A stretch of 64,000 nucleotides of DNA from Fuerstiella marisgermanici (GTDB lineage: Bacteria; Planctomycetota; Planctomycetia; Planctomycetales; Planctomycetaceae), in NCBI RefSeq assembly GCF_001983935.1, contig NZ_CP017641.1, positions 5,861,001 through 5,925,000 on the forward strand, read 5' to 3'. A model generated the notes under the pieces. The model saw only the letters and a program-made list of their open reading frames with translations. It did not search any database and was not told the origin of the DNA. Positions 5,322 to 15,923 of this stretch are shown here, piece by piece (position 1 is the first letter of the stretch; every line of letters begins with the position of its first letter). The translations under genes were made by a program, and so were the position numbers.

Positions 5322-6455
5322 ATGGATGCAATGCCCGCTTCTCAACTGGTGAAAGGACTTCGCCATCTGGTGAAGGATGTCGCCACGCCGCCCGTCTCCA
5401 AAGTCAATCGAATCGGCACTGGCGAATTGAACGGTGCCGCCACTAAATCGACCAGCCTGATCAGTTTCGACGACCAGCAGGTTCGATACTGCTCGATTGA
5501 TGTGCAGCAATTGTGCGACGAAGGATCGTTCGAAGCCGTGATTTGGCTACTGCTGAACGGCGACGTCGCAAACGGCGAACAGCTTGCAGATTGGTGTTCG
5601 ATTCTGAATGAAGCAGCCGTCGTCGATCAGCCAATCGCCGACATGATCGGCGCAGTGCCGCTGCAGACTCGCCCGCTGGACTTGCTGCCATTGGGTATCT
5701 CGCTGCTGTCCTGCTTCGACCCGACTCCGTGCGACCGCAACCTGGCGGCCACAAGGTCTCAATTTTGGCGCGTGCTGGCTCAGTTGCCCGTGCTGCTGCA
5801 CGTCGCATTTGGCGGTCGCCTGTCCGACGGGCGAGCTTTCGACGAAGACACCGACCGATCAACTTCGTTTGCCGGGCGGCTGTTGCGGATTCTTCGCGAT
5901 GACAACGTCGCTCCGTCGCCGACCGAAGAACACGCCATGAATGCCGTGTTAATCTGCGAATGTCTCACAGAGCAGCGGCCCGCCTGCATGCTGGCTCGGA
6001 TGTTTGGCGACACGGTCAACGACGCCGTGGCGGGGCTGAAAGCCGCTTCCGCAATGTACGTTTCTCAACTTCGCAACGATCCGTTCGCATGGACAGCAGA
6101 GAAACTAAAGTCGTTCAAGACCCCTGAACAAACAGAACAATGGTGGCTGGCTCGCACGCCTCAGGCAATGCCGTTCGGCTTTCAGGAAGAACGGGAAGAT
6201 GGCCGGAGCGAAGTGCTACGGCATCACTGCCGGGAATTGCTGGGCACCGTCGAAAACATGGTGATGGAAGCGTCCGCCTCGCGGCTGGAAACGCTACTGG
6301 CTCGCGAAAACCAGCAGCCAACAGTCGACTGGACTGCCACGCGAGCACTCACGCTGCTGGGTGTGCCGGAAGACCGCGTTTCTCTCGCAATCGGGATCGC
6401 CCGCATGGTTGGCTGGGCCGCTCAGACAATTGAGCAACACGGCTCTGGAAACTGA
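5322..6455 (+). CDS. Citrate-synthase-like protein lacking catalytic histidines
   Basis: A 377-residue protein with the overall pattern of citrate synthase but probably no such activity. Family landmarks are the SFEAVIWLLLNGD block (69-81), EEHAMNA at 202-208 where the family has a DHxMNAST-like stretch, and the C-terminal ARMVGWAAQTIEQ (360-372). The segment that should carry the first catalytic His (HGGAN type) reads GLKAASA (239-245). The one that should read GFGHRVYK is FGFQEERED (285-293). An Asp (336) fits the third catalytic position. The protein is somewhat shorter than usual. A good ribosome-binding site (AAAGGA) precedes the ATG. It sits 79 bases before threonine synthase on the same strand, so co-transcription is plausible; its role is unknown. 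Confidence 0.7.
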   Translation: MDAMPASQLVKGLRHLVKDVATPPVSKVNRIGTGELNGAATKSTSLISFDDQQVRYCSIDVQQLCDEGSFEAVIWLLLNGDVANGEQLADWCSILNEAAVVDQPIADMIGAVPLQTRPLDLLPLGISLLSCFDPTPCDRNLAATRSQFWRVLAQLPVLLHVAFGGRLSDGRAFDEDTDRSTSFAGRLLRILRDDNVAPSPTEEHAMNAVLICECLTEQRPACMLARMFGDTVNDAVAGLKAASAMYVSQLRNDPFAWTAEKLKSFKTPEQTEQWWLARTPQAMPFGFQEEREDGRSEVLRHHCRELLGTVENMVMEASASRLETLLARENQQPTVDWTATRALTLLGVPEDRVSLAIGIARMVGWAAQTIEQHGSGN

Positions 6456-6534
6456 TTGCCTGCCGATCTACGCTACGCGGAAAGTGCGGCCGATCGGATA
6501 AGCAATTCAGAACAACCTCGGAACCTAACAAATC

Positions 6535-7923
6535 ATGTCCCATGCGTTTCAGCAGTGTATTCACCCCGACTGCCAGGCCACGTTCGATCTGAATCAGATT
6601 CTGACCGCCTGCGAAAAATGCGGCAGCCTGCTGGACGTGCAGTACGACTGGGATCAGCTGCCGGTTCCGAAGTCGCTAAAAGACTTCGAACGCCGCTGGA
6701 GTAATCGGCTGAACCCACTGGATTTCAGTGGCGTCTGGCGGTTTCGCGACCTGCTGCCGTTTCCCAAAGACAGCGACATCGTCACGATCGGTGAAGGGCA
6801 GACGATTCTGCAACAAAACGATCGCCTGGCAAAACATGTGGGCATGGATGCTGGCCGACTGTTTCTGCAATACGAAGGACTAAATCCGTCCGGCAGCTTC
6901 AAAGACAACGGTATGACCGCCGCATCCACGCACGCACGCATGGTCGGCGCGAAGATGACGGCCTGTGCATCGACAGGCAACACAAGCGCGTCGCTGGCGA
7001 TCTATGCCGGAGTATCCGGGCTGTTTCAATGCGTCGTGTTTGTTGGCAGCGGAAAAATCGCCTACGGGAAACTGTCTCAGGCTTTGGATTACGGAGCCAC
7101 CACGCTGCAGATCAAAGGCGACTTCGACGACGCGTTAGCGCGAGTCCGCGAAGTGTGTGCCGAACATCCCATCTATCTTTGCAACAGCGTGAATCCGTTT
7201 CGGCTGGAAGGTCAGAAGACGATCATGTTTCGCGTGCTGGAAGGTCTCGGCTGGGAAGTGCCGGACTGGATTGTGGTGCCCGGCGGGAATCTCGGAAACA
7301 GCAGCGCCTTCGGCAAGGCCTTCATGGAACTGAAGAAACTGGGTCTGATCGATCGCATCCCACGACTGGCGATTATCAACGCGGCAGGTGCGGGCACGCT
7401 GGACGATCTGGTGAATAACAAAGACCTGCAATGGAACGACGGTCGCAACGACGCTGACATTATTCGCAGTTACTACGCCTCGATGGACGCTGACGACCGT
7501 CGAGCCAGCACATTGGCTTCGGCCATTGAAATCAATCGCCCCGTGAATCTTGTGAAGGCACTGCGAGCCCTCACCATTTGCGACGGTGTCGTTCGCAGCG
7601 TAGTGGATCAACAGATCGTGGACGCTCGCGCACTAATCGCAGCCAATGGTTTTGGCTGCGAACCCGCCAGCGGTGCCACCATTGCGGGATTGCAGCAGCT
7701 TCGCGAAGAAGGTGTGATTGCGGCCAGTGACCGAGTCGCCTGTGTGCTGACTGGTCACCAGTTGAAAGACCCGGACCTGACGGTGGCGTACCACACGGGC
7801 GATCCGGAAAAACAGGCTGAGAAACTGCATCCCGCCGGAGTCCACCTCACGCCGCACGCGAATTCGCCAGTGGTCGTCGAGAACGACAAGCACGCGATCC
7901 TGAAGGCGTTGGGACTCGGGTAA
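6535..7923 (+). CDS. thrC: Threonine synthase
   Basis: PLP-dependent fold-type II enzyme of 462 residues that converts O-phosphohomoserine to threonine in the cytoplasm. The N-terminus carries a small Cys pair region (CxxxxC, then CEKC at 26-29), as in zinc-ribbon-bearing threonine synthases. The PLP-lysine motif GSFKDNGM places the Schiff-base Lys at 123, and the ASTGNTSAS segment and PGGNLGN phosphate-binding loop follow. The length agrees with the plant-like/archaeal-type branch. A threonine-dehydratase-like enzyme is less likely because of the N-terminal ribbon and the pattern around the Lys. Confidence 0.9.
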
Positions 7924-7929
7924 CTTCCG

Positions 7930-9372
7930 TTACGCGAAAATATCTTTGACCACTCGCCCAAAGACGTCGGTCAACCGGAAATCGCGACCGGCGTAGCGGT
8001 AAGTCAGTTGTTCGTGGTCGAGACCCAGCGCGTGCAGGACGGTGGCGTGAAGGTCGTGCATGTGGACTTTGCCGTCCACCGCTTCATGGCCAATTTCGTC
8101 CGTAGAACCGTAGCTAAATCCCTTCTTCACGCCGCCTCCCGCAAGGAACACTGTAAAGCCACGCGGATTGTGGTCTCGGCCGTCATTGCTTTGATTAAAC
8201 GGAGTACGGCCGAATTCTGCGCCCCACCAAACGAGAGTGTCTTCCAGTAAACCGCGTTGCTTCAGGTCCGCCAGCAGCCCGGCCACCGGCTTATCGGTGG
8301 CGGTCGCGTGTTCCATGTGTTTGGGCATGTTGCTGTGCTGGTCCCAACGCGGGTTGGGTGATTCGTCGGCGTAATTGATCTGCACAAAACGCACGCCGGA
8401 TTCTGAAAGTCGGCGAGCCATCAGGCATTGACGCCCGAAGGCGTCGGTAGGCTTCGATCCGATGCCGTACATTTCCTGAGTCGTCGCAGTTTCTTCTGAC
8501 AGATCCAGAATGCCGGGAGCTTTGTTCTGCATTCGCCAGGCGAGTTCGTAGCTTTTGATGACGGCTTCCAGGCGATCGTCCTGTTCCGTACGCCGCTGAA
8601 GTTGAGCTTGATTAAGTTGCTGCGTGAGGCGAAAACGACTCTCAGTTTCCGCATCGTTCAGGACCGGATTGCGAATATGATCGATCGTCATCTGATCGAT
8701 CGACCGGCTGGCTCGGCCGATCGCGGTACCCTGATACACCGAAGGCAAAAACGCATTGGAATAGTTTCGTGGTCCGCCTTTTGTGTCCGAAGGCTGCAAC
8801 TGGACAAAGCCAGGCAGGCTCTGATTTTCTGTTCCCAACCCGTACATCAGCCACGAACCCAACGACGGCCGAACCAGATTAGTGGCTCCCGTATGCATGA
8901 AGAGCGTCGACGGGCCATGAGCCACACCTTCCGTGTGCATGCCCTTCAGAAAGCACAGGTCATCAACGTGCTTGGCGATCTCCGGAAACAGTTCACTCAC
9001 ATGCTGGCCGCAATTGCCGTACTGCCGAAACTTCCACAGTGGCTTCATCAGAGTGCGCTGGCTGACTTTGCCGAAACTGTTGAACCGTACTCCGGTAAAA
9101 TCAATCGTCTTGCCGTCTCGCGCAATCAGGTCCGGCTTGTAATCGAACGTGTCCACATGGCTGGGTCCGCCCTGCATAAAAATGAAGATCACTCGCTTCG
9201 CTCGCGCTGGCAGCAACGGCGTTCTCGCGCGCAGCGAATGGTCGACTGCTGGCGCTGCTTGAGCTTTCTGTTCCGCCAGCATGCTGCCCAGGGCCAGTGA
9301 ACCGAAACCGCAGCCGGACGACTTCAACCAGTCTCGCCGGCTACGTACAACGTTGTTTGCGTATGAGTTCAT
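7930..9372 (-). CDS. DUF1501 family secreted protein, first copy
   Basis: A 480-residue protein of the DUF1501 family, abundant in planctomycetes and related to alkaline-phosphatase/sulfatase-like folds. The N-terminus carries twin arginines followed by a hydrophobic stretch (RRDWLKSSGCGFGSLALG), suggesting Tat export. FMQGGPSHVDTFDYKP near residue 70 and the LVWWGAEFGRTP and GRDHNPRGF segments are family marks. I prefer the ATG at 9372; a GTG three codons earlier would overlap the stop of the upstream PSD1 gene. The pair is read from the minus strand with PSD1 first, so they are very likely one transcription unit. The biochemical role of this pairing is not established. Confidence 0.88.
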   Translation of the reverse strand: MNSYANNVVRSRRDWLKSSGCGFGSLALGSMLAEQKAQAAPAVDHSLRARTPLLPARAKRVIFIFMQGGPSHVDTFDYKPDLIARDGKTIDFTGVRFNSFGKVSQRTLMKPLWKFRQYGNCGQHVSELFPEIAKHVDDLCFLKGMHTEGVAHGPSTLFMHTGATNLVRPSLGSWLMYGLGTENQSLPGFVQLQPSDTKGGPRNYSNAFLPSVYQGTAIGRASRSIDQMTIDHIRNPVLNDAETESRFRLTQQLNQAQLQRRTEQDDRLEAVIKSYELAWRMQNKAPGILDLSEETATTQEMYGIGSKPTDAFGRQCLMARRLSESGVRFVQINYADESPNPRWDQHSNMPKHMEHATATDKPVAGLLADLKQRGLLEDTLVWWGAEFGRTPFNQSNDGRDHNPRGFTVFLAGGGVKKGFSYGSTDEIGHEAVDGKVHMHDLHATVLHALGLDHEQLTYRYAGRDFRLTDVFGRVVKDIFA

Positions 9373-12407: not shown

Positions 12408-13418
12408 TCAGTCTTCGGGCGGCTGATCCAGTGCACCGGGCTTCTTGAGTTCTTCGACCGCATCCTGAGCGTCTTCGCGATCTCCAGCGTCGAGGTCGGG
12501 TGCTGATTGCTCCTGCTGCGCATCGGGCTCGTAACTCAAAACAACCGACAGTGGCAAATGATCAGACCCAATATGCGACAATGTCTTCAGCGACACGACG
12601 CGGAAGTCGTCTGAATGAAACAGATGATCAAGCGGATATCGCCACACTCGCGAATTTGCATTGAACGTCGGGTACAAGCCACGACCTTTTCGCGGGTCGA
12701 GCAACCGGCTGACTTCCTGAAACAGGTCCGTTGTGCGCGACCAACCAACGTCATTCATGTCGCCCAACACGATCGCACTTTGCTGGTCGCGTATTTCCCG
12801 TCCAACTAACACCAGTTCGGCATCGCGTTTGGTGGTATCTTCACCCGGCCGAGGTGGATTCGGATGAACGACGAACAACCGGACAGGGTGTCCGCATCGC
12901 AACTTGACCATCGCGTCAATCGACGGAATCGATTCTTTGACGATGCCTCGCACTTCGGCTGAAAGAATTTCCAGCTTCGAATACATCGCCAGCCCATACT
13001 TATTCTCCAAAGGATGCTCAACACGATAAGGAAACTTCGAACGAAGTGGGCTGAGGTCGTCGACCCAGCGTTGATTAACTTCGCACAGCACAACAACGTC
13101 TGGCGATTGCTGTTCAACAAGGTTTAGCAGCGCACTGGCATCGTCGTTATCCTGCAAGACGTTGGCTGTCAAAAATTGAATCCGAACCTCTGGATCTTTG
13201 GACGTCGCCCACTGCACCTGGCGCGGGGCGACCGGCAGATAGGGAAAAATCCAGTACAACTGAATACAAACGCCGACAGCAAGAAGCACGGCCGCCGGTT
13301 TTGCGTATGGTTGTTTGTACAGAAACCCCAACACCACCAACCAAATCAGGTATGCGATCAAAAGTTGCACGCGCGGGAAGTCGCCGATTCGGACCCACCA
13401 CCAGTTGACCGGCAATAG
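12408..13418 (-). pseudogene. Endonuclease/exonuclease/phosphatase family gene, 3' part cut off by an IS
   Basis: This is the main body of a membrane-anchored EEP-superfamily protein (Mg2+-dependent phosphodiesterase fold). The frame still encodes 335 residues from a TTG at 13415. Two hydrophobic segments lie near the front (about 18-35 and 40-60). The metal/catalytic motifs are complete: TANVLQDN, the Glu in LCEVNQ, VVHPNPP, LGDMND and GSDHLPL. The 5' end is interrupted at 13418 by an ISAs1-family element. Removing the IS and one 10-bp repeat joins it in frame to the piece at 14710-14785, giving an intact protein of about 358 residues. A shortened product might still be made from the TTG, since only the first membrane helix is lost. 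Confidence 0.85.
13409..13418. repeat. Target-site duplication, left copy
   Basis: The 10-bp sequence CCGGCAATAG directly abuts the left end of the insertion element and recurs exactly at 14710-14719 directly after its right end. This is the expected footprint of transposition into the nuclease gene. Confidence 0.93.
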
Positions 13419-13438
13419 CAGGGCCAGCGCATACTAAG
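13419..13438 (+). repeat. Terminal inverted repeat, left end of the IS
   Basis: Starts CAGGGCCAGCGC and matches the right end (14690-14709, read on the opposite strand) at 16 of 20 positions, including the first 12 without mismatch. Confidence 0.88.
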
Positions 13439-14606
13439 TTGTTTTGCCGGTAAGGATTTGCATCAAATAGTCAATGTTCCATCCGGCCATTCTTCTTTTC
13501 ATGACGTTGCTTTGTTTGCCAGGATGTTTCTTGATGAGGCTGAGTGTGAGTCGTCTGAGCCATGACAAATTGTTCGCGAAGATTCGGTTTCGGACTCGAC
13601 TCTCATCCTCGCGGTAGGTCATGTCGAGACTCCAGTGCAGCGTGTTTTCTATGGCCCAGTGACCACGAACCGTTGTTGCGAACAGCTCGCCTTTGCGACG
13701 CAGACTGCTGATGTAGTAGCGAACGTCAGAATGATGAATGCCGTCCTGCTCGTACATTCGGATCGCCGTTCCGATGGTCTTGAGTCCGGCCCATTTGTGG
13801 CCCACGTCAAAATCGACAGGCACGGTCGCCTGATAGTAGATTCTCTGTTCCTGCCGACCGTGTCCCTTCTCTGTTTCTTCATAGCGACTGACGGGACAGC
13901 GAGCGAAGTCATCCTCCAGGTGATCGAGAAAAAACTTCTGCACGACCTCATAGAGTTTCGGTTGGTTGCCTTTCAGGGCTAACACATAGTCTGCATTGCC
14001 AGACACGATCTGCTGCGCAATGTTTTTTTGACAACCCGCTGCGTCAATCGTAATGATCGCCTCATCGATATTGATTTCGTTCAGTAATTTCGGGATCGCG
14101 GTGATCTCGTTCGACTTCTCTTCCGTCGCCACCTGTCCCAGAGAAATCCCCTGATCAGAAGCCCACGCACTCACGATGAACAACGCACCCAGCCCATTCT
14201 TTTTGTCATGTGATCGACGGAGTGCTTTGCCATCAATCGCAATCTGTTTTCTGTAGCCTTCTTTCTGTTCGTCGGAAAGTCCTTCCAGCGATTCAATCCA
14301 TTGCACGAAGCACGCTTGAAAGTCGTTCGGCTTCAGGAGAGAAAGGACGCGCCGGTACGTATCTTTTTTCGGAATGCCATGCGGAAGTGCCAGGTGTTTC
14401 TGCAGGCCATCGGCATTCAGTCGCGCCCATTCCGCAATCGCACTGGGGCCGTCGGCGTTGGCCAGCACTCCGCAAATGGCGATCACAATCACATCACCAA
14501 GCAGATGCAGACGATTGATGTTGGAACGCGGGTCTTTCAATTGATCAAAGTAATGAACAATGTTTCCTGTCAGCTCCTGGGTGACCGCCAGTTCAACTGT
14601 CGACAT
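13434..14606 (-). CDS. ISAs1-family DDE transposase
   Basis: A 390-residue transposase, full length for the family (related to the H-repeat-associated proteins). The catalytic triad can be read as Asp125 in AIDGKALR, Asp188 in TIDAAGCQ and Glu320 in HWAIEN. The block EKSNEITAIPKLL (163-175) and DYVLALKGNQ (206-215) are characteristic. The N-terminal region, with YFDQLKDPR, matches the helical domain found ahead of the catalytic domain in this family. A GAGGAGAGGA-type purine-rich ribosome-binding site lies just before the start. No frameshift or stop is seen, so the element may be active. Confidence 0.93.
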   Translation of the reverse strand: MSTVELAVTQELTGNIVHYFDQLKDPRSNINRLHLLGDVIVIAICGVLANADGPSAIAEWARLNADGLQKHLALPHGIPKKDTYRRVLSLLKPNDFQACFVQWIESLEGLSDEQKEGYRKQIAIDGKALRRSHDKKNGLGALFIVSAWASDQGISLGQVATEEKSNEITAIPKLLNEINIDEAIITIDAAGCQKNIAQQIVSGNADYVLALKGNQPKLYEVVQKFFLDHLEDDFARCPVSRYEETEKGHGRQEQRIYYQATVPVDFDVGHKWAGLKTIGTAIRMYEQDGIHHSDVRYYISSLRRKGELFATTVRGHWAIENTLHWSLDMTYREDESRVRNRIFANNLSWLRRLTLSLIKKHPGKQSNVMKRRMAGWNIDYLMQILTGKTT

Positions 14607-15053: not shown

Positions 15054-15923
15054 ATGATGGCAGATACGTCAAAGATCAGGCTACGCATTCTCGTCACCGC
15101 CGGACGGGTATCACTTGCCGTGTTGATATTGTGCTGTTTTTTGGAACGCAGCTTCGGCCAGAAATCCGCACCTTCAGCAACGGAAACGACGACGGTTGAA
15201 CGCGGCTCAAAAACCGCGAAGGACGGATTTAAGAACGAAGATGACATTCGCGATCGGTTTAACAACTGGAAACAGGACGACAACGCAAAAGCATGGCTAA
15301 AAGCCATGAACTACCGCATCGCGGACATTGAAAACGTCAACGCCGTTAAACCGCACGGCTATAAGGCAGATGTGGAAGTCACTGTGAAAACAGCAAAGGC
15401 AATACAGGTCGAGCGGATTTCCATCAAGCTGGTGAGTTCCGCCAATGGCTTCAACCAAATCGACAAACGCTGGCTGGCGACCTACGCCAAGATGTGGAAG
15501 ATGCCGCCGGTTGTCGTGAAGGGGCTGAAATACTTTGTGGGAGAAACTCCGCCCTATAAAGCAAGCCGACGTGACGAACGGATGTACCTGAATGAACTGC
15601 CCGAAGAAACTCAAAAAGCAGTGCTGAAGTTTTTCGCCAGCCACAAGAAGCAAATCGTTTCGGACTTGCTGGAAGGCGACGGCGAACACAGGGCGAATTG
15701 GTTCATGGTGACCTTTAAAGGGAGCGACAAACCCCAATGGCTGATTAAACCAACAGCGGACGCCGTAAGATTTTTCAGCGAAGGAGACGTCGTGATGACG
15801 CGAGCTGGGAACCTGAAAATCGGCCGGATCGGCGTGCAGCGTAAGGGCGGAGACAATGGCCGAGAAACAGCAAAGATGCTGCAGTTCAAAATCAACCCCG
15901 TACAGTTGTTTGACGCGGAATGA
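15054..15923 (+). CDS. HinP1I-like restriction endonuclease homologue with export-type leader
   Basis: A 289-residue protein. From residue 51 to the end I recognise strong similarity to the type II enzyme R.HinP1I (site GCGC, about 247 residues): GSKTAKDGFKNE (51-62), GFNQIDKRWLA (132-142), FVGETPPY (161-168), QRKGGDNGRETAKMLQFKI (262-280). The family active site is of the SD...QxK type. Here it appears as Asp106 and S-I-K at 123-125, so the Lys (125) is kept but the Gln position is Ser. Residues 1-48 have no counterpart in HinP1I: basic residues, then a hydrophobic run (VSLAVLILCCFL) and a polar SFGQKSAP stretch, like a signal peptide or anchor. No DNA methyltransferase is visible nearby. 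The similarity rests on my recollection of HinP1I and should be aligned. Confidence 0.82.
   Translation: MMADTSKIRLRILVTAGRVSLAVLILCCFLERSFGQKSAPSATETTTVERGSKTAKDGFKNEDDIRDRFNNWKQDDNAKAWLKAMNYRIADIENVNAVKPHGYKADVEVTVKTAKAIQVERISIKLVSSANGFNQIDKRWLATYAKMWKMPPVVVKGLKYFVGETPPYKASRRDERMYLNELPEETQKAVLKFFASHKKQIVSDLLEGDGEHRANWFMVTFKGSDKPQWLIKPTADAVRFFSEGDVVMTRAGNLKIGRIGVQRKGGDNGRETAKMLQFKINPVQLFDAE

Follow-up and report, generated by a model that had tools for sequence, protein, structure and literature searches.

How can a bacterium live with a restriction endonuclease gene that has no methyltransferase beside it? Restriction endonucleases are generally regarded as cytoplasmic enzymes kept harmless by methylation. 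The gene considered here lies in a 64-kb window (the whole stretch of DNA analysed, 5.861–5.925 Mb of a genome consisting of a single contig of 8.92 Mb) and encodes a relative of R.HinP1I, an enzyme whose target is GCGC, behind an export-type leader. We favour, at a probability of roughly 0.6, the reading that its product is a competent, probably GCGC-cutting endonuclease that is translocated by Sec and restricts double-stranded DNA outside the cytoplasm, the chromosome being spared by separation. The relevant features of the window are:

15054..15923, plus strand: HinP1I-type restriction endonuclease with an export-type leader (289 aa, ATG at 15054)
15054..15158, plus strand: predicted Sec-type signal peptide, residues 1–35; this type of leader recurs in 50 related loci
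15159..15194, plus strand: linker opening the mature protein, residues 36–47; homology to R.HinP1I begins at residue 47
15195..15920, plus strand: PD-(D/E)XK nuclease domain, assigned by homology, predicted fold and residue correspondence
13434..14606, minus strand: DDE transposase (PF13808/PF01609), separating the enzyme gene from that of the Exo_endo_phos protein and outside the system
12408..13415, minus strand: Exo_endo_phos protein (by Pfam), earlier described as a membrane-anchored nuclease

What kind of enzyme is this? The first-pass annotation had called residues 51–289 homologous to R.HinP1I, and this is amply borne out. The Pfam profile PF11463 (R-HINP1I) matches residues 85–286 over its full length (positions 1–208 of 208) with 208.2 bits (cut-off 25; E=1.3e-61), R.HinP1I itself (PDB 1ynm) aligns over residues 47–287 (E=2.4e-70) and the PADLOC model of a type II restriction enzyme matches as well (E=7e-80); NCBIfam holds no model matching the HinP1I-type enzyme, and PF11463 is the only Pfam domain in the 289-aa protein. 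An AlphaFold2 model of the mature part (residues 36–289, built from a 53-row alignment) reached a pLDDT of 89.3, with values under 50 for model residues 1–23 (protein residues 36–58), and superimposed on 2fkc with Z 30.9 and rmsd 2.4 over 241 residues at 40% identity, and on 1ynm with Z 30.7. The next-best fold match, MspI (1sa3, Z 16.0), has a similar PD-(D/E)XK fold but shares only 13% identity and has another target, CCGG. Asp106, Ser123 and Lys125 are the counterparts of HinP1I D62, Q81 and K83, of which Asp62 and Lys83 are catalytic, and residues 262–279 hold the conserved stretch QRKGGD.G...MLQFK. The window enzyme thus has the whole nuclease domain of R.HinP1I (residues 47–287), its predicted fold and its catalytic Asp and Lys, but differs from it in the signal-peptide-like leader, in a Ser in place of Gln81 and in the lack of an adjacent methyltransferase. 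Judged by sequence and fold, the gene is a member of the HinP1I family, but it is no classical type II restriction-modification (R-M) system.

In the leader, a positively charged start goes with a hydrophobic run whose Kyte-Doolittle mean reaches 3.01 in its best 11-residue stretch, and a cleavage-like small-residue site follows residue 35, between SFG and Q; the leader is called a signal peptide, here as in the relatives, by a lenient, purpose-made composition rule. From the earlier description of a leader of about 48 residues with a hydrophobic run, the leader and the run stand, and the length does not, being nearer 35 residues followed by a 12-residue linker. In-frame GTG or TTG codons occur inside the leader at residues 23, 24, 26 and 30. 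Weak purine stretches, seen by eye, precede both the ATG and residue 23, so the sequence before the candidate starts does not decide between them, and we prefer the upstream start because the leader recurs in relatives.

To what extent is this leader shared? From a search of one genome per species, 294 relatives were confirmed and the best 80 kept (L006–L085), many of them loci of metagenome-assembled genomes (MAGs). Among these best 80 of 294, 50 loci (L006–L055) are leader-bearing and 30 leaderless. By record titles, which may misname the organism, the leader-bearing set comprises 30 acidobacterial loci, 19 planctomycete loci plus the window gene, and one unlabelled locus; the gene's closest relatives are titled as planctomycetes. 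In leader-bearing relatives, the core signature GS.TAK.GF.NE is preceded by an in-frame start that usually lies about 30–60 codons upstream; in the leaderless loci, no more than about 16 codons separate the likely start from the core. In the 50 loci, as in the window gene, the leader contains a hydrophobic run, and its small-residue site frequently reads A-x-A or x-x-G, with Q next. Taken as the best 11-residue value in the 45 residues preceding the core, hydropathy has a median of 2.95 in the 51 exported-type rows, with the lowest value in L013, which a contig end cuts, and the next at 1.95; in the 30 leaderless rows, 8 of which have fewer than 11 residues there, its maximum is 1.12, and inside the cores of exported-type rows it is at most 1.78. 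Net charge ahead of the hydrophobic run is positive in 44 of the 51 leader-bearing rows and negative in none. The leader is thus present in every row of the 51-row branch except the contig-cut L013, and in two phyla. Cysteine-free cores are found in 42/51 leader-bearing compared with 13/30 leaderless rows, but R.HinP1I itself has no cysteine in its aligned part, weakening the cysteine argument for export. In composition the leader is what Sec-exported proteins look like, and composition and recurrence together point to export.

A quick maximum-likelihood tree built from the cores, with 84 rows and 244 columns (L061 was left out of the alignment for its broken frame, and the divergent planctomycete L004 and L005 were assigned to neither group), places all 51 leader-bearing rows on one side of one branch (SH-aLRT 96), the leader label changing once on the tree as compared to 26.4 times in shuffles. 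Since 19 of the 20 planctomycete rows share a 26-row clade (SH-aLRT 96) with seven acidobacterial rows, L034 lying elsewhere on a long branch, the tree suggests that the planctomycete enzymes were acquired by transfer from Acidobacteriota. Carriage by a virus, phage or plasmid was considered and rejected: viral-contig and phage collections gave no match to the enzyme, and the three matching plasmid records, all from Mollicutes, align only from residue 48 or 51 on, past the leader; in one of them (CP047439) the enzyme follows a C5 methyltransferase. Separately, L004, L005 and L200 are divergent, leaderless PF11463 enzymes. In L004 and L005, the enzyme gene overlaps at its end with an ORF that carries a PF01555-type motif, and this ORF in L005 resembles the planctomycete core enzyme L086 discussed below (53% identical); the target of this branch may therefore not be GCGC.

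How do the two forms differ in their surroundings? A methyltransferase lies directly upstream of the enzyme in 27 of the 30 leaderless loci (15 of the C5 type, 12 of the PF01555 type; BLAST and motif searches identified them, and Pfam confirmed 7/7 of those submitted to it, that of L048 included), and in the other three a contig ends less than 260 bases upstream. These 30 loci look like ordinary R-M systems. HinP1I-type R-M systems, whose methyltransferase is either an M.HhaI-like C5 or an N4-type enzyme, thus share the enzyme family with the window gene but have a leaderless enzyme directly after its methyltransferase. In the flanks of the 50 leader-bearing loci, 46 of which retain at least 1 kb of upstream sequence, no partner-type methyltransferase was found except in L048. 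Nine leader-bearing loci have ORFs with methylase motifs in their flanks, and Pfam identifies only that of L006 as a DNA methylase, a planctomycete core-type DPPF enzyme 1.3 kb downstream of the endonuclease gene; those of L008, L011 and L017 are Fe-ADH proteins, that of L044 is a peptidase and that of L049 an AMP-binding enzyme, and those of L020, L053 and L054 belong to no Pfam family.

The exception, L048, from an acidobacterial MAG, holds both forms in tandem:

6132–7178: M.HhaI-like methyltransferase
7117–7887: leaderless enzyme
7917–8732: leader-bearing enzyme

Its C5 enzyme matches M.HhaI, target-recognition part included (E=1.5e-114), and its leader-bearing copy (L048b) is the first row inside the leader-bearing branch (SH-aLRT 98 for the other 50). 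Such a gene order would be expected of an exported form that originated by duplication within an R-M operon, and L048 is a possible transitional locus.

Could a methyltransferase protect the chromosome from a distance? Searching the 64-kb window with PF00145 and PF01555 gave no match, so by these profiles there is no linked cognate methyltransferase; the matches in the genome lie at 8.81, 2.69, 7.07, 7.19 and 3.00 Mb, in agreement with the earlier statement that the window holds none. Nor is a GCGC methyltransferase recognisable by homology anywhere in this single-contig genome, which again sides with the first-pass annotation. Two C5 enzymes are present. One, L001, has its best PDB matches in 3lx6 and 3me5, presumably both Dcm, and was rejected as a protector of GCGC, its target region following theirs and not that of HhaI. 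The other, L002, matches HhaI in the catalytic half only; on the same segment (L002:1-2532), a GmrSD_N-like ORF, a MAE_28990-type HEPN gene and the C5 methyltransferase stand in a row, a probable separate defence locus. The PF01555 matches are L086 (motif DPPF), L087 (DPPY) and L088 (SPPY), and the best match in this genome to the N4-type partner is 35% over 75 residues. Both L002 and L088 could conceivably protect GCGC in the host. The DPPF methyltransferase L086 (G000, at about 7.073 Mb) is conserved in planctomycetes. Its type occurs in 13 of the 20 planctomycete hosts and in all 27 same-family genomes (family taken from listing order) of a 392-genome sample in which the exported-type enzyme occurs in this genome only; an association of the two was accordingly rejected. 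In addition, DPPF is a motif of N6-adenine enzymes, and there is no adenine in GCGC. In one core DPPF methyltransferase (L154:451-2295), a C-terminal extension reads by eye as GIY-YIG nuclease-like, Pfam reporting N6_N4_Mtase only.

The sites themselves are plentiful. GCGC had been described as frequent in this DNA, and it is, with 233 sites in the window, although this amounts to 0.54 of expectation; the enzyme gene holds none. At this frequency, a cytoplasmic copy that was active and unprotected would presumably kill its host. In 144 kb of the same genome there are 531 sites (0.57 of expectation). GCGC is below expectation (0.53–0.91) in all nine planctomycete genomes sampled, enzyme or not (window and L176–L195), and avoidance caused by the enzyme was discarded as an explanation, since the eight relatives without it show similar ratios (0.53–0.91).

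In the host genomes at large the picture divides by phylum. An M.HhaI-like query found some C5 match in 24 of 51 host genomes (38 matches), and among the best 12 of these 38 the match in L048 alone has a target region like that of HhaI, as judged by a regular expression and reading by eye; the remaining C5 matches are 36% identical or less, or short pieces. The N4-type partner query recovered an enzyme 51–64% identical in 28 of the 31 non-planctomycete hosts; in the 20 planctomycete hosts, homology search recognised neither an N4-type nor an M.HhaI-like partner. All 31 non-planctomycete hosts fall in one listing of 119 genomes of a single acidobacterial family, in which 38 genomes have the endonuclease (all leader-bearing as read), 39 the N4-type methyltransferase and 35 both; without the endonuclease, the methyltransferase occurs in 4/81 (Fisher p 4e-22, a value that ignores shared ancestry). 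The endonuclease genomes lacking the N4-type enzyme are G405, G409 and G434, the last of which has an M.HhaI-like enzyme. In a sample of 396 Acidobacteriota genomes, PF11463 was found in 18, of which 16 are leader-bearing and two (G672 and G759) leaderless, and the N4-type enzyme in 16/16 of the leader-bearing genomes and in two others.

That the N4-type enzyme modifies GCGC is suggested by its kinship with the partners of the leaderless enzymes. In 11 of 12 acidobacterial places read, its neighbours, named by eye, are an RsmE-like gene and a gene for a small protein that looks exported, and it lies apart from the endonuclease. In the exception (L101/L141, G417), a second methyltransferase copy sits beside a leaderless, distantly HinP1I-like ORF; this ORF (L141:6493-8164; PF11463 20.4 bits, below the cut-off; motif QRKGGNG) perhaps represents a further R-M branch. 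With the endonuclease near core-looking genes in many acidobacterial loci and the methyltransferase in a recurring site, both look vertically inherited in the acidobacterial family, and their association may partly reflect ancestry. The first-pass annotation had argued that export would by itself do away with the need for methylation. As a general rule this fails: 35 of the 38 endonuclease genomes of the acidobacterial family carry an unlinked partner-type methyltransferase and one more an M.HhaI-like enzyme, which counts against a simple export model because such enzymes would be unexpected had export made methylation needless.

Conservation speaks for a working enzyme. The residues corresponding to D62 and K83 are kept in all 51 leader-bearing and all 31 leaderless rows, N92, Q93, K96 and R135 are unchanged in 51/51 leader-bearing rows, and QRKGGD, G228, Q236 and K238 are kept in all 50 leader-bearing rows with letters there, motif and contact residues being as conserved as in the leaderless R-M enzymes. 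The conserved motif residues are suggestive of GCGC cutting by the leader-bearing enzyme. Position 81 is Ser in 51/51 leader-bearing rows; leaderless rows have Gln in 26/31 and Ser in 5/31 (L048, L073, L075, L076 and L080). Ser in place of Q81 could alter metal binding and activity; since each of the five leaderless Ser rows adjoins a methyltransferase, the exchange is compatible with an R-M system. With dN/dS at 0.06–0.18 in 14 pairs (dS approaches saturation in 3 to 4 of them), the leader-bearing branch is under purifying selection and not decaying.

The neighbourhood offers little by way of function. The first-pass annotation had noted a membrane-anchored nuclease gene before the enzyme, which is no conserved partner: the gene lies on the opposite strand, behind the transposase, and in no cluster shared by at least five of the compared loci. 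The Exo_endo_phos superfamily also holds phosphatases, and this neighbour is probably incidental. Among ORFs of at least 100 aa within about 8 kb, no conserved functional neighbour was found except acidobacterial genes that look like core genes (miaA, tmk, holB and a SpoIID-like gene, named by eye), and across the compared loci none of this length ties the enzyme to DNA uptake or secretion.

Together, this leads us to propose that Sec translocates the enzyme, which would then act in the periplasm or outside the cell, nicking and cutting double-stranded DNA that arrives from outside, be it taken up, released by phage or environmental, before it enters the cytoplasm. Transforming DNA is a double strand while in the periplasm and a single strand after entry into the cytoplasm, so an enzyme in the envelope could restrict it at a point that is closed to cytoplasmic enzymes. 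Spatial separation alone would protect the chromosome of Planctomycetota; Acidobacteriota may add to this protection, or replace it, with an N4-type methyltransferase encoded elsewhere, which would be kept either to guard against enzyme that is not yet exported or to spare the DNA of kin. The branch may have had a single origin, an ordinary HinP1I R-M system in which the endonuclease gene was duplicated and gained a signal peptide, an arrangement that would survive in L048, with a later passage from Acidobacteriota to Planctomycetota without the methyltransferase.

Other readings deserve to be weighed against this one. We entertain tentatively, as a possibility well short of even odds, that the two acidobacterial genes form an R-M system working across the membrane, in which the cytoplasmic methyltransferase would mark the cell's own DNA and the exported endonuclease would destroy unmarked double-stranded DNA within the envelope or beyond it, ahead of an uptake that leaves only single strands, which ordinary restriction enzymes are unable to cut; the planctomycete enzyme would then be an unconditional barrier or a feeding enzyme. 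Somewhat more doubtful, yet the main rival to our preferred reading, is a secreted DNase for nutrition or matrix remodelling that fragments environmental DNA for uptake, its sequence specificity being a relic. Many environmental MAGs are predicted to encode secreted nucleases, and Acidobacteriota belong to the phyla with several per MAG (PMC11495043); the 20 planctomycete hosts without a recognised partner-type methyltransferase would suit such a role; relic specificity, however, should drift, and motif and contact residues have held as firmly as in the leaderless R-M enzymes, a sequence-specific 4-bp cutter would presumably make a poor DNase, and the methyltransferase co-occurs with the enzyme in one acidobacterial family.

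An improbable alternative is that the leader goes unused, or that translation starts downstream of it at one of the GTG or TTG codons, leaving a cytoplasmic enzyme from which a methyltransferase of unrecognised type protects the host. The partner-type enzymes in 28/31 non-planctomycete hosts would fit, as would L002 and L088, whose targets homology leaves unassigned, but leaders with a positive start, a hydrophobic run and a cleavage-like site are found throughout the branch, and fewer cysteines fit an oxidising compartment. By a general rule of membrane topology, even an uncleaved leader of this type, acting as an anchor helix, would be expected to put the nuclease outside the cytoplasm. Only a slim chance attaches to an interbacterial toxin, a secreted nuclease that harms competing cells through their DNA. 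Exported polymorphic toxins commonly contain domains of the restriction-endonuclease fold (PMC3482391), but HinP1I goes unmentioned in the text consulted, the single Pfam domain (PF11463) after the leader leaves no modular delivery region, and no conserved neighbour of at least 100 aa could serve as immunity. Negligible, finally, is a decaying R-M remnant with a chance leader: the replacement of Q81 by Ser and a split frame in G863 would agree with decay, but dN/dS values of 0.06–0.18 contradict it, the catalytic Asp and Lys are kept in 51/51 rows and the leader is missing only where a contig end truncates the row.

Known systems offer partial likenesses only. Among the matches listed in a search of the open-access literature, no title or abstract opening describes an exported type II restriction endonuclease, and the main text of a review of type II enzymes (PMC4081073) is without the words 'periplasm', 'secreted' and 'signal sequence'. 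Restriction-endonuclease-fold toxins have been described as exported (PMC3482391). The secreted nucleases of environmental bacteria share with the window enzyme the predicted export and a nucleic acid substrate, but those of the sludge-MAG survey belong to other nuclease families, and its main text does not contain the word 'restriction' (PMC11495043).

What would an exported restriction enzyme mean? A branch that is conserved and apparently exported would add a second way of protecting a host from its own endonuclease, namely keeping enzyme and chromosome in different compartments, and sequence-specific restriction would then operate at a stage when transforming DNA still has both strands. 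L048 hints at the origin of the exported form, and in the one acidobacterial family in which an unlinked methyltransferase accompanies the enzyme, the idea of labelled self-DNA outside the cytoplasm can be put to a direct test. If true, Acidobacteriota would discriminate self from non-self among environmental DNA, and in Planctomycetota the enzyme, after its transfer without the methyltransferase, would have become an unconditional DNA barrier or a feeding enzyme. An apparently solitary restriction gene, then, need not be dead.
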